The notes beneath the pieces were generated by a model. That model did no database searches and was not told the origin of the DNA. It saw nothing but the letters and a program-made list of their open reading frames with translations. Positions 1,256 to 48,928 of a stretch of 64,000 bases of DNA are shown piece after piece; position 1 is the stretch's first letter, and the number at the start of each line of letters is the position of its first letter. Location: contig NZ_FNWC01000006.1 in NCBI RefSeq assembly GCF_900104635.1, forward strand, positions 124,001 through 188,000. The letters are read 5' to 3'. Position numbers and translations under genes: made by a program. The stretch comes from Coprococcus phoceensis (lineage in GTDB: Bacteria > Bacillota > Clostridia > Lachnospirales > Lachnospiraceae).

Positions 1256-4200
1256 TTATGATTTTTTCACTTTACGGCGTTTGTAAAGATATGTTCCAGC
1301 CAGTCCAGCACCAGAAGTCAGAAGAAGTGCAAGCAGTCCGTAAAGGTTGGTACTGTCGCCCGTTTTTGGACTGTCTGTTTTCTTTGGTGTATCGGGTGTT
1401 TCTGGCTTCTCTGGTTCTTTCGGTTCTTCGGGCGTTTCTGGTACTTCTTTGATAGTAACCGTCTGTCCGTCGTCCTCAATGTCCTTGTGTTCCGTAACCT
1501 TTTTTGGTTCATCTGGATTGCTTACATCATACAATTCTTCAAAGGTTACAAGCTGTTTACCGCCAAGGGAAGAAGCGTCGAATGTAAATACAATTTCTAC
1601 TTTCATGTTTTCTTTATCAGCGATAAAGGTATAGTCATTCTCTACACGTTTTCCATTGATAAGAAGTTCGGCGTTTTCTTCTTTCAACATCTGCCAGCCT
1701 TTCAACTGATATTTTGTGCCAATTTCCAAGCCCTCTAAAGTAACCGTATCAACGATTGTAACGTCTTTTCCTGCTTCAATCTCTTTGTTGCCGTCCCTAT
1801 CGGTAGCAGTCGTATGTATCTTGATGATACGTTCTGTAATTAAAACAGTCTGCCCGTCGTCGTCAATGTCCTTGTGTTCCGCAACTTTTACGGGTTCGTC
1901 TGGATTGCTCAAATCGTATAATTCCTCGAATGTTACCAGATTTTTACCGCCAAGCTCGGACGCATTGAATGTATAAGCAATTTCCACTTTCATAGCTTCA
2001 TCATCAGCGACAAAGGTATGGTCGTTTTCTACACGTTTTCCATTGATAAGAAGTTCGGTGTTTTCTTCTTTCAGCATTTGCCAGCCTACAAGCTGATACT
2101 TTGTGCCTTTTGTCAGTCCGTCTAATTTGACGGTATCAACGATTGTTACCTCTTTTCCTGCAAGGATTGTCTTTTCGCCGTCCTTGCTGGTTGCTGTGGT
2201 ATGAATTGAGATTTCTTTTTCGTATTCATCAGTCAAAGTCCCTAAATCAATCACAAGATTATTTCTTGATACCACGATTTCAAATGGTGGGATAAGCTCA
2301 AAGCCTTTGTTGCTGTCTGAACGTAATTCCTCAATGATGTAAGTATCATAAGGCAACGCACCTTTGCTGTCGTCTGGTTCAGAAGTCCCAAACCACACAC
2401 CGTCCTCGCTGGTCTTTCCTGCGTTGGTATTGTGCTTATGTGAAGCCCAGTCAGAAGAAGTGGAGAATTGCCCGTTATCATCAGTTACCACAACATGACT
2501 TTCTCCCGTCGTCTTGCTTGTGATCCTAAAGGGAACATCAGCAAGACGCTTGTGTGTGCCTGCACCGATTTTCACACCCTCAATATCTCCACGCTTAATC
2601 TGATTGTAGATAGAATGGGCTTCGTCGGTTAAGTCCAAGATTTTTCCATTTTCTGTGATTGTAAAATCAATCGGTTTTGCACCGTCAGTTAAGTAACCGT
2701 TGGGAGCTTCACTTTCAACGATACGGAATTTTCCATAAGGTAAAAGGTCAGCAGAAGTAGAAGCGACACCCTCAAGGTCTGTATGGATTGTCTTTACCAC
2801 TTCATTTTTCTTATAGAGCTTGCCCTCAACCAATACAGAATTATCATTTAAGGAAATGATGTCAAAGGCAGTATCTTTCAAGGTTGCACTTCCTTGTGGC
2901 TTCGTATCGCCCGTTTCTAAATCTCGTTTCTGAATTTTGACACCGCCACGGATAACCTTGTCTGATACAGAAAACTGATTACTTCCAGTCAATACGCCAA
3001 GGTCGCCGTCCTCGGTAATCTGTGTTACATATAAGCCCTTAATCTGTTCGGACTTATCGCCAGCCTGCATATATGCACCGTCAAGCAAGTAGCCGTTTGG
3101 AGCTTTTGTTTCCTCAACGGTTAGTGTTCCAAGTGGAAGAACCTCTTTACCGTCCTGCATATAGAAGCTGTCGCCAGACACCTTGTATGCGTCCGCTAAT
3201 TTTGTAACATAATGGATTGTGCCGTCGCTGTCCTTTTCAGCGATTGTCTTTGTCGTCCATGTGCGAGTAGCTTTTTCTGGAAGATTGTTCTTGTTGTAGT
3301 AACCGTCATAATATTTCCATGTAAACTCCGCACCTGCCAGAGAAGCGTTCCCTTGTGGGTTGTCTTTCTGCGTTTCCATGTCGATTTTGAAAAGCTCAAT
3401 CAAAGTGTCTGTTACTTTCGGTATATCAGATACATTCAAGGTCGCTGTTTTTCCGACTTCTACCTTTAAAGAATAGACAGTATCATCAACCTTATATCCT
3501 TTCGGAGCGGATAATTCCCTGATATAGACCGTTCCTGCTTTAACTTCTACAATCTCTGTATTGCCGTTACTATCAGTCGTAAGGGTGGCAAGCTGTTTCG
3601 TGCAGTCTTTATCAGAAAAGACACCGTAAGTTGCACCAGCGATTGAATAGTTGGTGTTGTTCTCTGTAATGCTGGCATTACTGGAAGATTTCTTCAATGT
3701 GGCATTTCCGACGTTTAAGTTCGCCCAGAACTGTCCGAGTTCCTGCCCCTCGCCAGAGTAGATATAACCGCCACATTCATAGCGTCCTTTATTGTCTTTG
3801 ACAAAGGCTTTTGCCCCTGCAAACACTTCGTCCTGCGTTGCCTTTGATATTTCATCATAAGAAGCTCGCACGTTGTCGCATTGCCAGCCTAGATGAACGC
3901 TCAATCTCTGCCAGACCACAAGCTGTCTTAAAAGGTAGGCGTGATTGTTGCTTATTCCGCTGTGGCTGTCTGTGTACTGTTTCACATATTCAATGGATAA
4001 GGCAACGTCGCTTATCTGGTCAGCAGTCAAGCGTGAGCTTGCGTCGGCTCTGGTCTTATAACCGTTTTTAAAATCGGTGTTAATGTCGATACAGTAAGCG
4101 TCCTCGCCCTCAACGGTCAAATGCCCCTCGTTAAAGGTAGAACCAATCGAACCGTCATTCATTACTTTTTCAACGATACCGACACGCTCATTGGATTGCG

Positions 4201-4306
4201 TCCAGTATTGCTTACTTTCCGCATGAACGGTTGTACTCGGCAAGGTGGTAACGACAGTCGCTAGGGCAAGTACGCCCGTACATAATCGTTTCAATATCTT
4301 TTTCAT
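1256..4306 (-). CDS. Sortase-anchored thioester adhesin with SpaA and VaFE-type repeats
   Basis: A 1016-residue cell-wall protein. Visible in order: signal peptide (residues 1-29, ending TTVHA); an N-terminal thioester (TQXA-type) domain with the reactive Cys72 in AYCIDINTDF; several SpaA/Cna_B-like domains, each with the lysine and E-motif of intramolecular isopeptide bonds (for example TVEETKAPNGYLL and IVESEAPNGYL); two tandem ~125-residue VaFE repeats containing TIVDTV and VTFEELYD; a Pro/Glu stalk; and a sorting signal SPKTGD with membrane helix and KRRK tail. Such proteins form covalent surface adhesins. I start at the ATG at 4304-4306 (GGAGC upstream) rather than an in-frame codon at 4351, because the signal peptide begins there. 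It is first in the ICE operon, so the element carries a host-attachment factor. Confidence 0.9.
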   Translation of the reverse strand: MKKILKRLCTGVLALATVVTTLPSTTVHAESKQYWTQSNERVGIVEKVMNDGSIGSTFNEGHLTVEGEDAYCIDINTDFKNGYKTRADASSRLTADQISDVALSIEYVKQYTDSHSGISNNHAYLLRQLVVWQRLSVHLGWQCDNVRASYDEISKATQDEVFAGAKAFVKDNKGRYECGGYIYSGEGQELGQFWANLNVGNATLKKSSSNASITENNTNYSIAGATYGVFSDKDCTKQLATLTTDSNGNTEIVEVKAGTVYIRELSAPKGYKVDDTVYSLKVEVGKTATLNVSDIPKVTDTLIELFKIDMETQKDNPQGNASLAGAEFTWKYYDGYYNKNNLPEKATRTWTTKTIAEKDSDGTIHYVTKLADAYKVSGDSFYMQDGKEVLPLGTLTVEETKAPNGYLLDGAYMQAGDKSEQIKGLYVTQITEDGDLGVLTGSNQFSVSDKVIRGGVKIQKRDLETGDTKPQGSATLKDTAFDIISLNDNSVLVEGKLYKKNEVVKTIHTDLEGVASTSADLLPYGKFRIVESEAPNGYLTDGAKPIDFTITENGKILDLTDEAHSIYNQIKRGDIEGVKIGAGTHKRLADVPFRITSKTTGESHVVVTDDNGQFSTSSDWASHKHNTNAGKTSEDGVWFGTSEPDDSKGALPYDTYIIEELRSDSNKGFELIPPFEIVVSRNNLVIDLGTLTDEYEKEISIHTTATSKDGEKTILAGKEVTIVDTVKLDGLTKGTKYQLVGWQMLKEENTELLINGKRVENDHTFVADDEAMKVEIAYTFNASELGGKNLVTFEELYDLSNPDEPVKVAEHKDIDDDGQTVLITERIIKIHTTATDRDGNKEIEAGKDVTIVDTVTLEGLEIGTKYQLKGWQMLKEENAELLINGKRVENDYTFIADKENMKVEIVFTFDASSLGGKQLVTFEELYDVSNPDEPKKVTEHKDIEDDGQTVTIKEVPETPEEPKEPEKPETPDTPKKTDSPKTGDSTNLYGLLALLLTSGAGLAGTYLYKRRKVKKS

Positions 4307-4332
4307 AAATCTAATGCTCCTTTCATTTTGGG

Positions 4333-4365
4333 TATAAAAATAGACGCTCATTTCTGAACGTCTAT
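4333..4365 (-). terminator. Terminator-like hairpin in the adhesin leader (possible attenuator)
   Basis: Read on the minus strand, ATAGACG pairs with CGTCTAT across an 12-base loop and is followed directly by TTTTTATA. This has the form of an intrinsic terminator, but it sits about 25-60 bases upstream of the adhesin start codon. It could attenuate expression of the ICE operon or end an incoming transcript. The stem is only 7 bp, so it is weak. Confidence 0.45.
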
Positions 4366-34839: not shown

Positions 34840-34978
34840 AAGTTGACTTTTGGTTAGGAATTGGCTTATTTTTGTATTTCAGCGAAATTCATTGCTTTTA
34901 ACACATCTAATAATAATTGTACATATTGACCAAAAGAAAATAAAAACGAAAAAAATAATAGAAAAATCAGACAATCCT

Positions 34979-34987
34979 TGATATAAT
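34979..34987 (+). promoter_or_regulatory. Extended -10 promoter of the GH20 gene
   Basis: TGATATAAT (34979-34987), with a weak -35. Transcription starting near 34994 would place the RAT about 18 bases into the leader. Confidence 0.65.
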
Positions 34988-35011: not shown

Positions 35012-35040
35012 GGATTGTTACTATTGAATTAGGCAAGACC
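35012..35040 (+). promoter_or_regulatory. Ribonucleic antiterminator (RAT) of BglG/LicT/SacY type
   Basis: The 29-base element starts GGATTGTTACTATTG and ends TTAGGCAAGACC. The invariant parts of known RATs, GGATTGTTAC on the 5' side and GGCAARACC on the 3' side, are both present at the right distance, and the 3' end (AAGACC) overlaps the 5' stem of the terminator at 35035-35082. A phosphorylation-controlled BglG-family protein bound here would block termination. No such regulator is encoded in the window. Confidence 0.85.
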
Positions 35041-35082
35041 AGGGTAGACTTTGAATGAGAGAGGGATACTTTGGTCTTTTTT
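35035..35082 (+). terminator. Leader terminator controlled by the RAT
   Basis: AAGACCA (35035-35041) pairs with TGGTCTT (35072-35078), followed by TTTT. Its 5' arm is shared with the RAT, the classic mutually exclusive arrangement. It precedes the GH20 start codon by about 40 bases. Confidence 0.82.
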
Positions 35083-35122
35083 AGCAATTCTGTGTAGAAA
35101 AGGAAAGGAGATAAAGAGGAGA

Positions 35123-38100
35123 ATGAAAAAGAAACAGGTTGTAAGTGGATTGCTGGCAACGGTTATGATAGCAAATATCGCTTTGGTTGATATGGGACCG
35201 GTACAGGCAGCAGAGAACTTAAATCTCGCAAAAGGATGCAATGTGACGGCGAGTAGTTATGAGGTGAGTGATCAGATTGATACATCGCCAGCAAAAGCTG
35301 TGGATGGTGATATGGCTACCCGTTGGGGAACTGCACAGAACAAGGCAGATAATGAATGGATTGAAATTGATTTGGACGGTGAGAAGACAGTACGCCAGAT
35401 TAATATTAATTTTGAGAGAACAGATGAAGCACAGAATATCTTAAGCTATAAAATTGAATTAGAAGAAAACGGAAAATATACAGAGGTTTATAAAAAGACT
35501 GCCAAGGCAAAACAAAAAGAAGTGATTCAATTAGATAAGAATCATAAAGCGACAAAAGTAAAAGTAACTGTACTTTCGGCAGACCAGGGAACAATCAACT
35601 GGAAGAATGTAGGAATCAATGAGATTGAGGTGTACAGTGAGTTGGTGGAGGTTGCAGATGCGACTCCAAATAAAAATCATATGGCGAATGCGACTGTTAC
35701 GGCTTCCAGTGTGGAGAAAAATACACAATTTACCGCAGATAAAGTAAAAGACGGCAAGACTGATAAGGCGAATCGTTGGGCGAGTGACTACGAGACACCG
35801 ACAACCAATATTTGGTTAAATTCCAAATTTGCAGGACTGACTTCTGTGAAAGAGATTAAGATTCACTTTTTGGAAAGAGATGTGGCGCCGCAGCCATCTA
35901 ATGTAAAAAGCTTTGATATAAAATATATAGATAAAAATGGTGAAGAGAAGACTGCGAAGAGTTTTACAAATACAAAGCAGGGAGAAGGATATAAAAACGA
36001 AGTTGTCATTCGACTGGACCAGCCGATTGAGGCAAAAGAACTGAAGCTTTGTAATTTTGTTGCGGAAGCAGCAGAATGGAATAATATCGGAATTTTGGAG
36101 ATGGAGGTGTATTCCAACGATCAGGCAGAGCAGGGAGCGACTCTGGATTCGGTAGTAGAAGCTATTGAAGCTGAGAGTAAGACAATTGCGGCAGATGTAG
36201 ATACACTTGAGATGCCTGTAGTTCCGGCTGGTTTTTCGGTAAAACTAAACGGAGCAGATTTTGAGCAGATTATTGGGGATAATGGGAAAATCGTACATCC
36301 GTTGACGGACAAGACTGTAAAGGTATCTTATGTTGTAACAGAGACTGCAACAGGAAAAGGGAAAGAAACGAAAGATGTTGATTATATTGTCAAAGGAACA
36401 AAGACTCAGGCAGATGGTAAGAATGCCAAACCAACTGTAATTCCGGAGATTCAGGAGTGGTATTCGGACTCGACGGAGAAGATAGCGGTATCTTCCCTAA
36501 AGACAGTTACCTATACAGATGATAAATTAAAAGATGTTGTAGATGAGTTTGTAAGTGATTATGAGGATTTCACGGGAATCAAGCTGACAGCGAAAAAAGG
36601 CGGGGCTGAGGCGAATGCATTCAACTTTGAGCTGAAAGCGCCGGATGAGCTTCTCGGAGAAGAAGGATATACGATGGATATTCAAAAAGACCGTATCAAT
36701 GTTGCATCTGTTGACACCACAGGTAACATGTATGGCATGCAGACAATCCTTCAGATGTATAAAGAAAACAATGAGAGATACAATGTTGGGCAGATGCGTG
36801 ATTATCCTCGTTTTGAGACGCGTGGATTCTTGTTTGACGTTGCTCGTAAGCCGGTTTCTTTGGAGATGATGAAAGAAGTTACAAGAACGATGCGCTATTA
36901 TAAAATGAACGATTTCCAGGCACATTTGTCAGATAACTACATTTTCCTGGAGGATTACGGAAAGGGCGCTCAGGAAAATGAGGCATTTAAAGCTTATGAG
37001 GCCTTCCGTCTGGAATCCGGACTTTCTAATGAAAAAGGGGAGACACCTACAGCGAAAGACTACTCGATCTCTAAGAAAGATTTCAGACAATTTATTCAGG
37101 ACGAGAGAGCTCTTGGCATGAATATTGTTCCTGAGATTGACGTGCCGGCACATGCAACTTCATTTACAAAGATATGGCCGGATCTGATGGTAAAAAATAA
37201 AGTTTCGTCTTTAAATGCAAACAGACCACTGGTAGATCATCTTGACGTTTCTAAGACAGAGACAAAAGAAAAAATCAAAGAAATTTTTGATGATTATACA
37301 AAGGGTGACAATCCAACATTTGATAGTGAGACAACCGTACATATCGGTGCAGACGAATTTTTGGCAGATTACAAAGCGTACCGCGGATTTGTAAATGATC
37401 TGGTTCCTCATGTAAAAGAGACAAATACAGTGCGTATGTGGGGCGGCCTTACATGGATCAAAGATAATCCGGTGACAGAGATTGATAAAGAAGCTATTGA
37501 AAATGTGGAGATGAATCTTTGGTCAGCCGACTGGGCAGATGGAATCGAAATGTACAATATGGGATATGATCTCATCAACACAATTGATAATTTTGGCTAC
37601 ATGGTTCCAGATGGAAGTAAAGCACGTGCAAATGCGTATGGAGATTTGTTAAATGTAGAGCGAATTTTTAATGAGTTTGAGGCAAATAAAGTAAGAGTAA
37701 AAGGCGGAGCATACAAGTATGTTCCGGCGGGCGATGACCAGATGCTCGGGGCAGCATTTGCACTTTGGAGCGATAACATTGACAAGAGAGCGTCCGGATT
37801 AAGCGAATCTGATTTATACTGGCGTTTCTTTGATGCACTTCCATTTTATGCGGAGAAGACATGGGCTGCAACTGGTAAGGAAAAAGGAAGTGCAGATGCG
37901 CTTGCAAAATTAGCAACCGATAAAGGAACAGGACCGAATACAAATCCTTATTATCAGGAAGACAAAAAAGGTGAAAATTACGAAAGCTATGATTTCGAAG
38001 ATGGCTTAAAAGACGGTTCGGAGAACAAACGTGATCTGAAAGAAGGAAAGAATGCGGAAGTAAAAGAAAACGCATTGGTATTAAAAGATGGCGAAAGTTA

Positions 38101-40246
38101 TGTGACATCACCGATTGAAGAGCTTGGAAATGGAAACCAATTGTCATTTGACATTAAGTTGGAAGAGCCGGCAAAACCGGGTGATATCTTATTTGAGTCT
38201 GACGCGGCATATGGAACACACGATATCCGAATTATGGAAGATGGCAAATTAGGATTTACAAGAGAGCTTTACAATTACTATTTTGACTATGAGCTTCCGG
38301 TAGGAAAGAATGTAACTATTACAATCACAACCGATCAGCAGAAGACAAGTCTGTATGTAAATGGCGAGTTTGTTGCGGATGCAAAAGGAAAATTCATTCA
38401 CAATGACATGGTGAAAAAAGAGAATATTACCAATGCCACATTTGCACTGCCGCTGGAAAGAATCGGTTCTAAGACAGAGACAGTCTCTGCGGTGATTGAT
38501 AATGTAGTTGTATCAGCAAAAGAACCGGAACAGGATATTTATAATAAAGCGGCTTGGACCGGAACAGCAGAGTCAGAGACTCCGACTTCACAAGGTGGTG
38601 GAAAAGAAGGTGTCATAGGCATGGCATTTGATAACAGTTCTTCTACACACTGGCACTCTGACTGGTCTCAGGCTACAAAAGACAAAGTTCCGACAAGTGC
38701 CGGAGCAGCCGGAACAGGTAAAGGTGCAGATGGAAGTATCTGGGCAGAAGTTAAATTTGATAAAGGATATGAAATTAATCAAGTGTTATTTGCTCCACGT
38801 CAGGACACGAACAGTGGTCAGGTAACAAAGGCGTCTCTTTATATTCAGACTGAAAAGGACGGAAAATGGGTAGAGGTTGCAAAAGATAAGACATTTGCGG
38901 CTGACAAATCAGAGAAAGCATTTACGTTCGACAAACAAATGGTATACGGATTCAAGTTTGTTGCAACTCAGTCAAATGATGGCTGGGTAACCGTATCTGA
39001 ATTCAATATTGCAGATAAAAAAGTAACCGATAAGATTTATACCGTATATGTGGAAGCAGAAACAGGTGGAAAAGTAAGCGGTGGTAAAGATGTGTCAGCA
39101 GGAGAATCTGTGACGGTTACAGCGACACCGGATAAAGGGTACGCATTTGAGGGATGGTATCGTCCAAACGGCGAGAAAGTATCTGAAAAAGCAGAGTATA
39201 CGTTCAAGGTGAATGGAAATACAGCTTTGATTGCGAAGTTTGAAAAGACTGGTGAGACAGAAGACAAAAACATCACAGATGTGGAAAAACTAGATGATAT
39301 TACCGTTGTACAGGGAACTGCATTTGAAGATTTGGATCTGCCGGAAAAAGTATCTGTCACATATGGAAAGAACGAGACAGCAGAAGTAGATGTGACATGG
39401 GAGAAAGGAACTTACAATGCACAGGAATGTAAGACATATGTATTGGAAGGCGCTTTAACTCTACCGGAAGGAATTGCGAATCCAGATGGATTGAAAGCGA
39501 TAGTCAAGGTTACAGTGGAAGAAAAAGAGACACCGGTTAAGAAGTATACGGTCTCTGTAAATGTAAAAGATAGTGAAAAAGCGATGGGAACTGTCTCTAT
39601 GGACAAAGAAGATGGTGTCTATGAAGATGGCATGAATGCGACTGTGACAGCGACAGCAAATGAAGGATATGAGTTTGTAAACTGGACAGATACAGACGGA
39701 AAAGAAGTAAGTAGTTCCAATCCATATACATTTGCAGTGACAGCAAACACAACACTGACAGCAAACTTTAAGAAAATGGATGTGAAACCGGAAGCTCCGA
39801 CAGCGCAGGATATCTTAGATGAAATTATTGCAGGACAGAAAGTACCGACAGTGATTACAAAGGGAGAGACAGAACTTGTTCTTCCGAAAGTCCCAGAAGG
39901 CTATAAGATCCAGATTACAAAAGTAAATCCGGAAGGTATTATCGCATTAGATGGAACAGTGACAACGCCGAAGAAGGACACAGATGTTATCGTGACAATC
40001 TCTGTGACAGATCCAGAAGGCAAGACAGCGAGTGCAGATTTTACAGTGAAAGTAAAAGGAAAGAACGAGCCTGGAAAAGAAGATCCAAAGGATCCTCAGA
40101 ATCCTTCAAAAGGTGATACAAATAAGAAAGATCCTTCTCAGGACAAAAAACCGGTGAAGACAGGAGATGCAACAGCGGCAGCTGGCTGGATGCTTGCGAT
40201 GACAGCAGCAGGTGCAGTGGTACTTGTAAGAAAAAGAAACTCATAA
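35123..40246 (+). CDS. Cell-wall-anchored GH20 beta-N-acetylhexosaminidase, multidomain
   Basis: A 1707-residue surface enzyme predicted to release terminal GlcNAc/GalNAc (or lacto-N-biose) from mucin, milk or other glycans. Order: signal peptide (1-29, ending VQA); two F5/8-type C (CBM32-like) domains (about 33-165 and 180-335); GH20 N-terminal domain (about 450-560); GH20 barrel (about 570-900) with catalytic D744-E745 in HIGADEFLADY and the upstream IVPEIDVPAHATS; a LamG-like domain (about 940-1110); another F5/8 C domain (about 1120-1270); two InlB/Listeria-Bacteroides-type repeats (GYAFEGWYRPNG, GYEFVNWTDTDG) around an Ig-like domain; sorting signal PVKTGD, helix and RKRNS. ATG 35123 follows AGAGGAG. 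The RAT/terminator leader implies induction by a sugar through PTS-linked antitermination. Confidence 0.93.
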   Translation: MKKKQVVSGLLATVMIANIALVDMGPVQAAENLNLAKGCNVTASSYEVSDQIDTSPAKAVDGDMATRWGTAQNKADNEWIEIDLDGEKTVRQININFERTDEAQNILSYKIELEENGKYTEVYKKTAKAKQKEVIQLDKNHKATKVKVTVLSADQGTINWKNVGINEIEVYSELVEVADATPNKNHMANATVTASSVEKNTQFTADKVKDGKTDKANRWASDYETPTTNIWLNSKFAGLTSVKEIKIHFLERDVAPQPSNVKSFDIKYIDKNGEEKTAKSFTNTKQGEGYKNEVVIRLDQPIEAKELKLCNFVAEAAEWNNIGILEMEVYSNDQAEQGATLDSVVEAIEAESKTIAADVDTLEMPVVPAGFSVKLNGADFEQIIGDNGKIVHPLTDKTVKVSYVVTETATGKGKETKDVDYIVKGTKTQADGKNAKPTVIPEIQEWYSDSTEKIAVSSLKTVTYTDDKLKDVVDEFVSDYEDFTGIKLTAKKGGAEANAFNFELKAPDELLGEEGYTMDIQKDRINVASVDTTGNMYGMQTILQMYKENNERYNVGQMRDYPRFETRGFLFDVARKPVSLEMMKEVTRTMRYYKMNDFQAHLSDNYIFLEDYGKGAQENEAFKAYEAFRLESGLSNEKGETPTAKDYSISKKDFRQFIQDERALGMNIVPEIDVPAHATSFTKIWPDLMVKNKVSSLNANRPLVDHLDVSKTETKEKIKEIFDDYTKGDNPTFDSETTVHIGADEFLADYKAYRGFVNDLVPHVKETNTVRMWGGLTWIKDNPVTEIDKEAIENVEMNLWSADWADGIEMYNMGYDLINTIDNFGYMVPDGSKARANAYGDLLNVERIFNEFEANKVRVKGGAYKYVPAGDDQMLGAAFALWSDNIDKRASGLSESDLYWRFFDALPFYAEKTWAATGKEKGSADALAKLATDKGTGPNTNPYYQEDKKGENYESYDFEDGLKDGSENKRDLKEGKNAEVKENALVLKDGESYVTSPIEELGNGNQLSFDIKLEEPAKPGDILFESDAAYGTHDIRIMEDGKLGFTRELYNYYFDYELPVGKNVTITITTDQQKTSLYVNGEFVADAKGKFIHNDMVKKENITNATFALPLERIGSKTETVSAVIDNVVVSAKEPEQDIYNKAAWTGTAESETPTSQGGGKEGVIGMAFDNSSSTHWHSDWSQATKDKVPTSAGAAGTGKGADGSIWAEVKFDKGYEINQVLFAPRQDTNSGQVTKASLYIQTEKDGKWVEVAKDKTFAADKSEKAFTFDKQMVYGFKFVATQSNDGWVTVSEFNIADKKVTDKIYTVYVEAETGGKVSGGKDVSAGESVTVTATPDKGYAFEGWYRPNGEKVSEKAEYTFKVNGNTALIAKFEKTGETEDKNITDVEKLDDITVVQGTAFEDLDLPEKVSVTYGKNETAEVDVTWEKGTYNAQECKTYVLEGALTLPEGIANPDGLKAIVKVTVEEKETPVKKYTVSVNVKDSEKAMGTVSMDKEDGVYEDGMNATVTATANEGYEFVNWTDTDGKEVSSSNPYTFAVTANTTLTANFKKMDVKPEAPTAQDILDEIIAGQKVPTVITKGETELVLPKVPEGYKIQITKVNPEGIIALDGTVTTPKKDTDVIVTISVTDPEGKTASADFTVKVKGKNEPGKEDPKDPQNPSKGDTNKKDPSQDKKPVKTGDATAAAGWMLAMTAAGAVVLVRKRNS

Positions 40247-44317: not shown

Positions 44318-47300
44318 ATGAAAAAGAATCAGACAAAGCGTCTGCTTGCACTTGTACTAACACTTGCGCTGACATTAAGCAATGTGCCGACGACCGTATT
44401 TGCGGAAGATGTGACAGCGACTGAGCCACAGAGCACGACAGAACAGCAAGTGCAGTCACAGGAAGAGACGACAGAGCAGGTGGATCAACAACAGCAACAG
44501 GATGAAGATACTAATACACAGCAGACAGAACATGAAGCAGAGTTTCATGGGAACAAAGTAGCGGGGGTAGATCTTCGTGGAAAGTTTCAAAATGCATTTG
44601 GGGTTGCCCTTGAATATCGTTTCCGGGTTTCAGGGACACAGGATGAGTGGCAGACTGTAGATATCACAAAATCACACACATTGCAGTCAAATGTGTATGA
44701 TGTACAGACACGGCAACCTTTCGGAAAATGGAAAGATGCAGGGACAATGCAAGTTAAAATCTACTACAATGTAGGTTTTGTAGTCGAAGGACATGAAGCA
44801 GGGGGAGTGTTGATCGACGGACAGAGTGCATCATCTGCTAAGGTTTACCAAAACGAAGCAGTGACATTTTCTGTGAAAGACATTGACGGGTATGACGTAA
44901 CTGTAGAAGGCGTGACTCAAAATGAAAACGGAACTTACACAGTAGCGTCAGTACAGGCAGATACAACTGTAAAAGTGGTATATACACTGAGACAGTATTC
45001 GACAGTAGAGAGTACAGCAGTCGAAAATGCCAAAATTAAGATTAACGAAAGCAGTGATGCATCTGTTAAGGTAGAGAATAACAAGGAATTTACAATTGAA
45101 GTAACACCCAATGCAGGTTATGCGGTAACTGAGATTAAAGTAAATGATACAGCACTTGATAATGTCACTTTTGCAAATCAGACAGCAAGCGCATCTTATC
45201 AGGCAGGAGAAAATCAGACATATTCAGTAAGCGCAACGCTTGTAAAGACAGGATTTGCGTTAAATGACAAAAACGAAGATGGCGTATATGCAGTTGGATA
45301 CCGTGATGGGATGGATCAGGCTACAACAGAGTCAAATATCTTCAACACTTTGGTCAACGCAGGAGCTTCTGTTCCGGCAGACCTGACAGTAGATGATGTG
45401 ACAATTCAGTACTATGCAGGAGCATGGGGGAAATGGCAGGAAGTAAATTATGAACCAGACTTTTTGCATGGATTTACAGATCATAAATTTGGAACAAAAG
45501 AGACAGAGCAGATTAAAATTACATATGCCGGCAATGACCAATATGGAAGTTTTAGTTCTGATGAAATTACAGTAACGATTGTAGACCCGCGTTCTGTCTC
45601 AGTTTTGGAATTGAATGCTGGTGTTACATTACAATATAACACAGAAGAGACGATGAAGCAGGAAATCTATGAGAAAGTCATCGCTTCTTTAAACACAGGT
45701 GAGGGAACTGCGATTGCACATACAATCGATGACTTCACAATCGAATTTGAAAGAGCGCTTGGAGAGCAGACAGTAACAGTCTCTTACAAAGGCTCTGACG
45801 ATTATAAACCTTGTGAGGCAAGTACTGTTATCACAATTGAAAAAGGAAAAGCCTCTGTAACTGTAAATTCTCAGAATATTACATACGGAGAAAGTTTTGC
45901 ACCGGTATTTTCATCAAACCCTTCCGATGCAAAAGTAATTGGAATCATTGGTGGTGTGACAGGAAACGGAGCTCTTTATGTGAGCGTGGATGCATCTCAG
46001 ATTACAATCAACGATATCGCAGGAAAAGAGATTCCGGTTATCGGAAACCTGTCTCTTCAAAAATTTATTACAGACACACTTGGAATTAAAGAATTTAAAG
46101 TCAGTCAGCTGACTGATATTTTACAGAAAATTCCAGGGGCAGATATCAGTGATATAGTTGCCGGAATTCAGCAGGCAATCGATGTGATCGAGCAAGTTGC
46201 TCCGGGACTACTTGACACAACAGTATCTCTTGGCGAACTTCCGAGTGAAGCAGGAGTATATACAGCAGTTGGTGTTACAGCAAGCCAAAACTATAAGACA
46301 GCATTAGGAATAGGACTTCTCACAGTCGCTCCAAAGACATCAGATGTAAAACTTGCATTTGATCAGGAATTTGACAACAATGCGCACAAACTGACAATCA
46401 GTCAGGCGCAGGCATTTGACTTCGGCGGACACATTGTAGACGGAGATGTTCAGGAGACAAACAATGTTCATACACTTTATGTCGGAATGACAACAAGCGG
46501 AAAGCTTTATACAGGAACAACTCCATGTTTAGAGCCAGGTGCGTACACAGAAAGTGTTTATGTATTGGGAGGAAATTATTTCGCACTTCCAATTAGCAGA
46601 TTATATACAATTCAGCGAGAAGAAGTAGAAATTAAATTTGAGCCATCAGCTTTGACAGCAAGATATGATGGTAATCCACACGGATTAAAAGCAGGAGTTT
46701 ATAATGCAAATGGCGACAGAATCGCAGATGCAGAAGTAAAATATGCAGGAATCGAAGCAGGAATTGAAGGATATTACAGCAAAGAGATGCCGGTAGATGC
46801 AGGCTTCTATTTAGCATCAGCATCATTTGCAGGAGATGATACTTACCAGCCGGCAATCAAATTAGGCGGTGGTTCCGTACTGATTCTGAAATCATATGCA
46901 AAAGGAAAGATTCAGGTTGGATTATTGACAACAACTTACGGGGAACCGACAGATCTCACAAAAGTGCAGTATACAACATCTGGTCTTGCTGCAAGAGATG
47001 TAGAGACGATCAAAGCAACAGTAAAATGTGATGGCAATGACTCTGCAGTAGGAAGCCATGCAATTTCTGTCAGTGTACCAAAGTCAGTTCAGAAAAACTA
47101 CTATAGAACAATTAAGACTCAGGACGGAACACATACAATCGAACAGAGAGCAATTACTGTTCAAATCGGTTCTTATTCAAAAACATATGGTACAGAGGAT
47201 CCGGCATTCTCTTATGAGATCACAGAAGGAAGTTTGGCAGAGGGAGATACTCTGAAAGATCTTGGTATCAAGCTTGCTCGTAAACAGGGTGAGAATGTAG

Positions 47301-48928
47301 GAAACTACGAAATCTATGTAGAGAATGAAGCAGAGTTAAATGCAAATTATGCAATTACAGTAGTAAATGGTAACCTTGAGATTACACAGGCAAATGCAGT
47401 GATCAGAGTTACCGGTGGAAATGACAGCAGCGGAAATTACACAAAAAGTTATGGAGATATAGATCCAATTTATACTTACTGTGTAGATGCACTGGTTAAT
47501 ACTGATGTGCCGGAAAATGAAGAATTTGGCAAAGTAAAATTAGTTCGTGAAGAGGGAGAAGATGTAAATACTTATACAATTACTCCGACTGTGGAAAACT
47601 TAAGTCCAAACTATACTTATACAGTTGAGACTGGAACACTTGAGATTATTCCACGCAGCATTACAATCAGCGCAGAAGATGTACAGAAAGTATACGACGG
47701 AGAAGCAGCAGAAGCACCGTACACAATTTCCGGATTGCCGGCAGATAAAGATACAGCAGATGCAGAAGATCTTGGACTTCACGTAAAAGCAGATATGCCG
47801 ACAGAAGCGGGAACTTACGAAGTTTCTTATGCACTTGATGAAACAGCTTCACAGAATGCAAACTATAAAGTGACATTCCTGCCGTTTAATGTTGTGATCA
47901 AAGCAAGAGAACTTACAGTTAAGATTAATTCGACAGCAAAAGTGTATGGAGAAAAAGATCCGCAATTTAAGTATACATTAGAAGGAGAACTGGTTGGTGA
48001 CGATAACCTTGACATCAAACTTGTTCGCGAGCCGGGAGAGAATGTAGGAACCTATAGAATTTATCCAGAAAATGAAAATGTATTGAATGCAAACTATAAA
48101 GTAACATTTGAGTATGGACAACTTACAATTGCCAAAAAGGTAATTACAATCTCTGTTACTGGTGGAGAGCAAAATGACGGAAATTACGTAAAACGTTACG
48201 ATGATGCGGATCCGGCTTATTCATTCAGTGTAACAGACGAGAAGGGTGATGCTGTGACAGATGAAAATCTGGGTGAAATCAAAGTAGTACGTGAAAAAGG
48301 TGAAGATGTAGGAACTTACACGTTGATACCAACTGTAGAGAATGAAAGTGAAAACTACGAGTACGGTATTGTAGAAGAGAATGGTACATTGGAGATCCTT
48401 CCACGTGAGATTACAATCAGCGCGGAAGATGTAGAAAAAACATATGATGGAAAAGCAGCAGAAGCGCCATATACAATTTCTGGATTAGCAGCAGATAAAG
48501 ATACAGCAGACGCAGCAGATCTTGGTTTAGAGTTAAAGGTTGTAACAAGCCAGACAGCATTAGCAGATGGAACAAAACTGGAAACTCCGATTGAGACAGA
48601 AGGAATGCCGGTAGATGCTGGAACTTATACAGTTACATATGCATTAGATGAGTCTGCTTCACAGAATCAGAACTATGATGTAACATTCCTTCCGTTCAAT
48701 GTATCTATTAAGAAAGTAAATACAGATAATACACCAACGACACCATCTACACCAAATGATAGTGATAATCAAGGTTCAAAACCAAATTTAAAACCAGATT
48801 CAAAATCAGATTCAGTAGTGGATACAGGTGATACAGCAAATGTGATGACAACTATGACAGCGACAGCTCTTGGCGCTTTGGTTGCAATTGCACTTCTGTT
48901 ATTCAAAAGAAGAAAAACAGACAAATAA
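44318..48928 (+). CDS. Large sortase-anchored surface protein with MBG repeats
   Basis: A 1536-residue wall protein. Signal peptide 1-29 (ending TVFA); Gln/Glu/Thr-rich segment 30-70; N-terminal domains without a certain name, including InlB-like stretches (about 150-310); Ig-like domains (310-520); then from about 850 a series of MBG-type domains recognised by the repeating pattern KxYGxxDPxFxYxxxG, GENVGxYxI and NANYxITxxxGxLxI, four to six copies alternating with SAEDVQKVYDGEAAEAPYTI-type repeats (two copies about 250 residues apart, nearly identical). A Thr/Pro/Ser linker leads to the sorting signal VVDTGDTAN, a membrane helix and FKRRKTDK. MBG proteins are thought to be adhesins; the ligand is unknown. 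Confidence 0.92.
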   Translation: MKKNQTKRLLALVLTLALTLSNVPTTVFAEDVTATEPQSTTEQQVQSQEETTEQVDQQQQQDEDTNTQQTEHEAEFHGNKVAGVDLRGKFQNAFGVALEYRFRVSGTQDEWQTVDITKSHTLQSNVYDVQTRQPFGKWKDAGTMQVKIYYNVGFVVEGHEAGGVLIDGQSASSAKVYQNEAVTFSVKDIDGYDVTVEGVTQNENGTYTVASVQADTTVKVVYTLRQYSTVESTAVENAKIKINESSDASVKVENNKEFTIEVTPNAGYAVTEIKVNDTALDNVTFANQTASASYQAGENQTYSVSATLVKTGFALNDKNEDGVYAVGYRDGMDQATTESNIFNTLVNAGASVPADLTVDDVTIQYYAGAWGKWQEVNYEPDFLHGFTDHKFGTKETEQIKITYAGNDQYGSFSSDEITVTIVDPRSVSVLELNAGVTLQYNTEETMKQEIYEKVIASLNTGEGTAIAHTIDDFTIEFERALGEQTVTVSYKGSDDYKPCEASTVITIEKGKASVTVNSQNITYGESFAPVFSSNPSDAKVIGIIGGVTGNGALYVSVDASQITINDIAGKEIPVIGNLSLQKFITDTLGIKEFKVSQLTDILQKIPGADISDIVAGIQQAIDVIEQVAPGLLDTTVSLGELPSEAGVYTAVGVTASQNYKTALGIGLLTVAPKTSDVKLAFDQEFDNNAHKLTISQAQAFDFGGHIVDGDVQETNNVHTLYVGMTTSGKLYTGTTPCLEPGAYTESVYVLGGNYFALPISRLYTIQREEVEIKFEPSALTARYDGNPHGLKAGVYNANGDRIADAEVKYAGIEAGIEGYYSKEMPVDAGFYLASASFAGDDTYQPAIKLGGGSVLILKSYAKGKIQVGLLTTTYGEPTDLTKVQYTTSGLAARDVETIKATVKCDGNDSAVGSHAISVSVPKSVQKNYYRTIKTQDGTHTIEQRAITVQIGSYSKTYGTEDPAFSYEITEGSLAEGDTLKDLGIKLARKQGENVGNYEIYVENEAELNANYAITVVNGNLEITQANAVIRVTGGNDSSGNYTKSYGDIDPIYTYCVDALVNTDVPENEEFGKVKLVREEGEDVNTYTITPTVENLSPNYTYTVETGTLEIIPRSITISAEDVQKVYDGEAAEAPYTISGLPADKDTADAEDLGLHVKADMPTEAGTYEVSYALDETASQNANYKVTFLPFNVVIKARELTVKINSTAKVYGEKDPQFKYTLEGELVGDDNLDIKLVREPGENVGTYRIYPENENVLNANYKVTFEYGQLTIAKKVITISVTGGEQNDGNYVKRYDDADPAYSFSVTDEKGDAVTDENLGEIKVVREKGEDVGTYTLIPTVENESENYEYGIVEENGTLEILPREITISAEDVEKTYDGKAAEAPYTISGLAADKDTADAADLGLELKVVTSQTALADGTKLETPIETEGMPVDAGTYTVTYALDESASQNQNYDVTFLPFNVSIKKVNTDNTPTTPSTPNDSDNQGSKPNLKPDSKSDSVVDTGDTANVMTTMTATALGALVAIALLLFKRRKTDK

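Follow-up and report, generated by a model that had tools for sequence, protein, structure and literature searches.

The window, the whole 64,000-nucleotide stretch of the Coprococcus phoceensis genome that was analysed, contains a gene for a secreted surface protein of glycoside hydrolase family 20 (GH20), preceded by a short leader in which a ribonucleic antiterminator (RAT) overlaps an intrinsic terminator. The features of this locus, in window coordinates, are as follows.

34959..34987, plus strand: promoter-like site, TAGAAA - 17 nt - TATAAT, with the -10 element at 34982-34987 and a TG preceding it (consensus scan, 10/12 positions)
35012..35040, plus strand: RAT, GGATTGTTACTATTGAATTAGGCAAGACC (pattern and covariance model R1)
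35035..35082, plus strand: intrinsic terminator, stem AAGACCAGGGTA / TACTTTGGTCTT (35035-35046 / 35067-35078), T6 at 35077-35082 (sequence and folding)
35115..35122, plus strand: ribosome-binding site-like GAGGAG ahead of the ATG (read from sequence)
35123..40246, plus strand: secreted surface GH20 protein of 1707 aa (Pfam; termini read by eye)

According to Pfam, the GH20 protein comprises F5/8 type C domains, GH20b and GH20 domains, an InlB B-repeat-like region and Big_4; both the catalytic domain (PF00728) and GH20b (PF02838) exceed their cut-offs. Its N-terminus resembles a signal peptide by eye, and its C-terminus carries PVKTG followed by a hydrophobic stretch and an RKR tail. GH20 enzymes may release GlcNAc, GalNAc or a disaccharide. 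The nearest solved structures are the beta-N-acetylhexosaminidases 7ezt and 6jqf (E about 1e-102), and this activity is the likely one for the protein; lacto-N-biosidase was rejected as the likeliest activity, since the best structural matches of that kind are far weaker (9fyn, 53.5 bits; 4h04, 41.4 bits). The window also encodes a surface protein of 1536 aa (44318-48928) that carries MBG domains, ends in a sorting-type tail and has no enzyme domain according to Pfam, and, on the minus strand, an adhesin-like protein of 1031 aa with SpaA and T-Q ester bond domains (1256-4351).

An earlier note, made from the letters alone, had described a 29-base RAT with both conserved halves in the GH20 leader and a 3' end overlapping an intrinsic terminator, and both observations hold. 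The halves GGATTGTTAC ... GGCAARACC are present at the correct spacing, and the element folds into the RAT structure, an imperfect hairpin with basal GG/CC, UUG/CAA and apical pairs and two internal loops, in which the base pairs and conserved loop bases are all intact. The terminator stem is 12 bp long; its 5' arm begins within the RAT, and AAGACC is common to both. The strict two-half pattern matched only twice in the 3.6 Mb genome (7 contigs, completeness 100), in the GH20 leader and at positions 812-839 of contig C1, and the reversed-pattern control gave no match. With the covariance model R1 the GH20 RAT scored 42.3 bits (E 1e-12 genome-wide), a value favoured by construction because this RAT is among the 40 training sequences of R1. 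A chance likeness to a RAT is rejected on the pattern and its control and on the E-value, and the overlapping terminator and the location of the second match, on an antiterminator operon, leave it a negligible probability.

The free leader has a folding energy of -31.5 kcal/mol; 200 shuffles averaged -18.7 (sd 2.8) and none was as stable (z = -4.59), and forcing the RAT pairs gives -19.1 kcal/mol. The terminator fold is thus favoured in the free RNA, as a protein-dependent antiterminator requires. Such a strong preference might also be expected of a merely constitutive or protein-independent attenuator, or of a decaying RAT that no longer responds, and the nearest GH20 homologues, which lack a RAT, would agree with either. 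Both are very improbable: the pairs and conserved loop bases are undamaged, three other RAT-terminators are retained on matching genes in the same genome, and the mechanism of the family itself predicts that the terminator prevails when no protein is bound. The simple terminator scan found no terminator in the GH20 leader, probably because it limited loops to 3-8 nt and the stem of this leader encloses 20; within the window, Rfam at gathering score reported only a tRNA and did not detect the RAT. The site at 34959..34987 is a putative promoter only, since promoter-like sites show no excess in the region (8, against 6.7 in shuffles).

R1 was built from 40 aligned RATs, and all pairs of the RAT structure are formed in 40/40 of them, although for most of the basal pairs the search pattern imposes this, and they carry no weight as evidence. 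The two apical pairs, on which the pattern places no constraint, covary, one being U-A in 38 sequences and G-C in 2, the other G-C in 24, A-U in 7 and C-G in 1, with a gap in 8. An apical pair is A-U in the GH20 RAT and G-C in the RAT on C1 of the same genome. Two RATs of Thomasclavelia cocleata outside the training set of R1 show paired basal-stem changes (U-A to C-G; G-C to A-U). These two variants, at L190 601-629 and L195 676-702 and both before GH84 genes, possibly form a second specificity class.

The search for further RATs, which the earlier note had called for, yielded three more strong ones. The four strong RATs scored 42.3, 40.8, 32.2 and 31.3 bits, followed by a candidate at 14.1 bits (R1, 150 scored of 2689 first-look candidates), and an overlapping terminator was found at each of them. 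The three additional RATs and the operon on C1 are listed below.

C7:2177053, minus strand: RAT before a secreted GH84 gene (1745 aa), 32.2 bits, outside the R1 training set
C6:410060: RAT before a secreted GH20 (1634 aa) and GH89 (1675 aa) pair, 31.3 bits, outside the R1 training set
C1 (locus L007) 812-839: RAT of the nag operon, 40.8 bits (R1), ending 65 bases ahead of the antiterminator gene
C1 (L007), overlapping the RAT 812-839: terminator of the nag operon, stem AAAACCAAGTC/GATTTGGTTTT
C1 (L007) 905-1765: antiterminator with CAT_RBD and two PRD, NCBIfam LicT 364 bits (cut-off 300)
C1 (L007) 1778-2275: PTS IIA
C1 (L007) 2355-3794: GlcNAc-type PTS IIBC (NagE), TIGR01998 604 bits (cut-off 553)

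All four strong RATs thus stand on the GlcNAc PTS operon or on GH20, GH84 or GH89 genes, families that release N-acetylhexosamines. The secreted GH89 protein, of the alpha-N-acetylglucosaminidase family, starts 14 bases after the GH20 of its pair. A strong RAT is absent from four of the seven GH20/GH84 genes of this genome. The tandem GH20 and GH89 genes (L160 1561-11646; C6 about 410-420 kb) follow a RAT of just 25 nt with two apical pairs, the terminator of which has a perfect 21-bp stem.

The claim that no PTS gene or antiterminator lies near the GH20 gene stands within the window: the four places of the genome that match CAT_RBD all lie outside it, and tblastn with 19 reference proteins (PTS parts, antiterminators, NagB, glycosidases) at E 1e-3 matched the window at the GH20 gene only. 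A regulator or PTS gene within the window was rejected on these grounds. BglG-family proteins do exist elsewhere in the genome, as the earlier note had proposed to check, and the one on C1 combines CAT_RBD with two PRD. The missing regulator is probably this LicT-type antiterminator, encoded on another contig beside IIA and NagE; the gene order suggests that the three genes are co-transcribed. LicT is the nearest solved relative of the C1 antiterminator, residues 1-166 of which align with LicT structure 6twr (E 2.7e-47), and its CAT domain with LicT 1l1c; no NagY model appears among its NCBIfam matches. The PRD-motif histidines lie at positions 100, 159, 207 and 270, and their equivalents in LicT are its phosphorylation sites.

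Contamination was considered as the origin of C1, which is only 5.6 kb long, and was rejected because its first 130 bases recur elsewhere in the same genome: one further copy is full-length (99%), and another covers 97 bases (100%). The region 3' of nagE (L007 3872-5363) holds a gene for a CBM9-like protein of 205 aa and a second one, presumably for a CutC-like protein, and then a tRNA-Trp on the opposite strand.

The C1 protein was chosen as the partner mainly because the operons of the other three antiterminators (L008, L009 and L010) carry RAT-like sites of different classes, which score 11.5-17.5 bits against 42.3 for the GH20 RAT, whereas the C1 RAT shares both conserved halves. These other sites, namely AGTTTGTTATT..AAGCAAGACT (twice), the GlcT-like TGTAACTGTACGGCAGGCA, and AGATTGTTACTCTTTGAGGCATTACT with GGATTGTAACCATTTGGGCATTACC, deviate from the GH20 RAT at the base, in the internal loops or in the 3' half. 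Since the genome encodes four CAT_RBD proteins, the RAT could be functional and have as its true partner the L008 or L010 protein (beta-glucoside type) or the L009 protein (GlcT-like), alone or together with the C1 protein, and the signal would then be a beta-glucoside or glucose. The similarity of the L008 protein to the Thomasclavelia nag antiterminators (34.5-36%, against 33-35% for the C1 protein) would allow this, as would one of the two sites of the L010 operon, GGATTGTAACCATTTGGGCATTACC (13.2 bits), which is the nearest to the GH20 RAT and retains the basal GG/CC as well as the greater part of the 5' half, but has a different 3' half. Overlap of regulons has a precedent in Enterococcus faecalis, where the antiterminator NagY is reported to affect bglG-bglF (PMC12502629). 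The RAT-led enzymes, belonging to GH20, GH84 and GH89, suit GlcNAc and not beta-glucosides, and a different partner, or a shared one, is an unlikely reading on the evidence of the sites.

The GH20 leader is thus, with good confidence, a BglG/LicT-type RAT-terminator switch operated in trans by the antiterminator of the GlcNAc PTS operon on C1. In the scheme that we infer for antiterminator binding, phosphorylation control, the sugar (GlcNAc) and the substrate of the enzyme, which may be a host glycan as the earlier note supposed, transcription would start at about 34994. When no GlcNAc is taken up, phosphorylation by the PTS would hold the antiterminator inactive, the terminator at 35035-35082 would form, and no GH20 protein would be made. 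When NagE gives its phosphate to incoming GlcNAc, the antiterminator would shed its inhibitory phosphates and dimerise; the dimer would bind the RAT and keep AAGACC from the terminator, and RNA polymerase would read through. The same antiterminator would also turn on its own operon and two unlinked surface loci, that of GH84 and that of GH20-GH89. The outcome would be a positive feedback between GlcNAc release and GlcNAc import.

Control of secreted enzymes in trans is known from LicT of Bacillus subtilis, acting on the bglS leader, and from SacY, acting on sacB. There, as here, a RAT leads a secreted enzyme gene unlinked to its regulator; the sugar in those systems is a beta-glucoside or sucrose (on the sucrose stimulon, see PMC4796004). 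The RATs of the bgl operon of Clostridium acetobutylicum, GGATTGTTACTG-N6or7-CAGGCGAGACC, were tested in that organism by deletion (PMC12628678) and have both halves in common with the present ones, including the GGCGAGACC variant found before the GH84 gene of this genome, as well as a 3' end shared with a terminator. They differ in that two RATs lie inside one beta-glucoside operon, and the part of PMC12628678 consulted describes no unlinked targets.

The closest counterpart is NagY of E. faecalis, a BglG/SacY antiterminator that shares an operon with nagE, binds the nagY and hylA leaders in vitro, and is required for the induction of nagE by GlcNAc and for the expression of hylA (PMC9981650). 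HylA, a surface hyaluronate lyase, is under NagY control (PMC9981650, PMC12502629), and the reported direct targets of NagY include the GH20 protein EF0114, the GH18 protein EF2863 and the polysaccharide lyases EF0818 and EF3023, with a putative RAT at 23 of 26 direct targets (PMC12502629). Compared through these published descriptions, the two systems share an antiterminator-nagE operon, a RAT overlying a terminator ahead of this operon and also ahead of one unlinked, cell-wall-anchored enzyme that degrades glycans, and a GH20 target. They differ in lineage (Lachnospiraceae and Coprobacillaceae here), in the separate IIA gene of the C1 operon, in the enzymes, which are GH20, GH84 and GH89 here whereas PL8 is the main example described for E. 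faecalis, and in the RAT itself, which is near-canonical here and is described for E. faecalis as poorly conserved relative to the consensus. The regulator acting in trans that the earlier note had postulated is supported by all signs, including the four-member RAT set and the C1 locus, but the idea is less unusual than was stated there, given NagY (PMC9981650, PMC12502629). The kind of circuit was already known, and the present data appear to add other lineages, an enzyme set of GH20, GH84 and GH89, and recurrence; in the literature searched (open-licence full texts, partial coverage) the circuit was not reported outside Enterococcus.

The earlier note had further proposed to look for the same leader upstream of orthologous GH20 genes and would have counted loss of the RAT there as a refutation; the closest homologues do indeed lack it. 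Among 54 GH20 loci of named genomes, searched with the pattern and then with R1, a strong RAT was found in three, those of T. saccharogumia, T. cocleata and Clostridiales bacterium VE202-01, none of them among the nearest; the GH20 of VE202-01 is a near twin of that of T. saccharogumia. The whole DNA of the 54 loci was rescanned with R1, because some GH20 matches started far inside the gene, and gave these three strong sites and two weak ones (16.6-17.5 bits) elsewhere in the loci. Weak pattern matches in three distant loci (15-16 of 19 positions, 407-1136 nt upstream) were taken as chance, and in L015, L016 and L041 little DNA lies upstream of the GH20 gene, so the leader may be lost there.

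A tree was built from 35 GH20 domains, leaving out two partial pieces from L017; three labels were set to RAT by hand, since truncated copies of loci with a known RAT had been kept. On it the RAT label changes about 10 times, and at least 7 changes are forced by well-supported branches as labelled; the figure of about 10 is approximate because some of the 'none' labels of Thomasclavelia use the strict pattern, which misses variants found by R1. Shuffled labels equalled this number of changes in 104 of 500 trials, and the tree by itself does not distinguish gain from loss of the RAT. The row of the window alone carries a RAT among the 9 in its clade, and vertical inheritance of the RAT together with this GH20 within the clade was rejected, the nearest homologues being without it. 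The absence from close homologues shows the wiring to be lineage-specific and does not imply that it is inactive, as three more RATs stand on matching genes in the same genome.

Within the genus, a RAT at E 0.001 or better was found in two of ten genomes, and in two of the four that are at least 90% complete. Genome G411 (99% complete) of the same genus encodes NagE (612 bits), yet a scan at E 0.001 gives no RAT in it. A RAT precedes a GH84 gene in the sister MAG G123, where the only CAT_RBD protein found lies in an antiterminator - HPr - EI - IIA - NagE operon (L144 / L256, C11). This antiterminator resembles the GlcT model more than the LicT model, without reaching either cut-off, and the RAT of its own leader is GlcT-like. 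Either one protein reads both RAT classes there, or the GH84 RAT is idle, or a further regulator is missing from the MAG. The type of antiterminator and the type of transporter are therefore not strictly coupled, a GlcT-like protein being located in a NagE operon.

In the family Lachnospiraceae, the strict pattern gave 99 RAT places in 62 of 397 genomes, and the reversed control gave 4; 96 of the 99 were classified, each according to whichever recognised gene came first in a span of 5 kb, the exceptions being two G141 places close to the ends of contigs and the second place in G345. An antiterminator with IIA and/or NagE forms the largest class (38 of 96), with NagE itself seen in 26, the stretch read having stopped earlier in the remaining 12. 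Beta-glucoside PTS or GH1 genes follow with 25 (antiterminator first in 11) and GlcB-type PTS with 10 (5 with an antiterminator), and the rest comprise HPr/EI (7), surface GH20/GH84 (5), NagB (2), an antiterminator whose operon was not seen (2) and no recognised gene (7). The RAT class alone is no proof of GlcNAc, because the same pattern serves beta-glucoside, glucose-type and HPr/EI operons. Terminators overlapped 85 of 92 family RATs, compared with 312 of 1840 when the downstream DNA was shuffled. The five surface-enzyme RATs belong to the genome of the window, G123 (GH84), G141 (GH20) and G179 (two GH20), and one of the two in G179 lies, with its GH20 gene, immediately downstream of an antiterminator - IIA - NagE operon. 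One family RAT (L221, G144 C5, about 1.01 Mb) stands ahead of a gene for a lipoprotein-like protein of 589 aa.

The wiring recurs in a distant lineage, with five strict-pattern sites in T. saccharogumia, nine in T. cocleata and four in VE202-01, each of them leading a gene for a large protein whose N-terminus resembles a signal peptide (by eye). GH20 accounts for five of the nine strict targets of T. cocleata and GH84 for three, the ninth being a laminin-G/arabinofuranosidase-like protein, and R1 adds two RATs, both before GH84 genes. This genome has at least 11 RATs, 10 of them on GH20/GH84, and contains 12 GH20 and 7 GH84 genes (counted per reading frame). A RAT and a GH84 gene come immediately after its nagE (599.7 bits) and antiterminator genes. 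The RAT-led surface protein with laminin-G and arabinofuranosidase-like parts (L127 2572-6447), the sole strict target outside GH20/GH84, adjoins nagE. In VE202-01 a frame break, real or an assembly error, divides the nag antiterminator gene (L148 / L135; G398 C195).

The switch is therefore patchy on any given enzyme, yet its pairing with GlcNAc-releasing enzymes recurs. On balance, the RAT-terminator may be a small portable module that has repeatedly been placed before enzymes releasing one sugar in gut Firmicutes of at least two families, so that one antiterminator linked to the GlcNAc transporter commands unlinked surface glycosidases. If so, membership of the regulon would shift by gain or loss of a 70-base leader and not by movement of genes. 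How gut Firmicutes degrade host and milk glycans is, to our knowledge, better catalogued by enzyme than by control, and here the control circuit, that is, which enzymes, which regulator and which sugar, could be read from DNA. The RAT with its terminator would be a searchable mark for assigning uncharacterised surface proteins to the GlcNAc regulon, and free GlcNAc is predicted to turn on the surface hexosaminidases in this strain and in Thomasclavelia. The logic of Enterococcus NagY would be extended to two further families, in which the wiring of any single enzyme comes and goes.

The leaders have one more feature past the T-run. In the GH20 leader, AGCAATTC (window 35082-35092) could pair with GGATTGTT in the 5' half of the RAT and lengthen the terminator fold, and some Thomasclavelia leaders have AGTAACT past the T-run, complementary to the GTTACT of the RAT. 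The leaders concerned are those of T. cocleata L128, T. saccharogumia L022 and VE202-01 L023. Such a long duplex may matter because NagY acts together with RNase III on its leader (PMC12502629).
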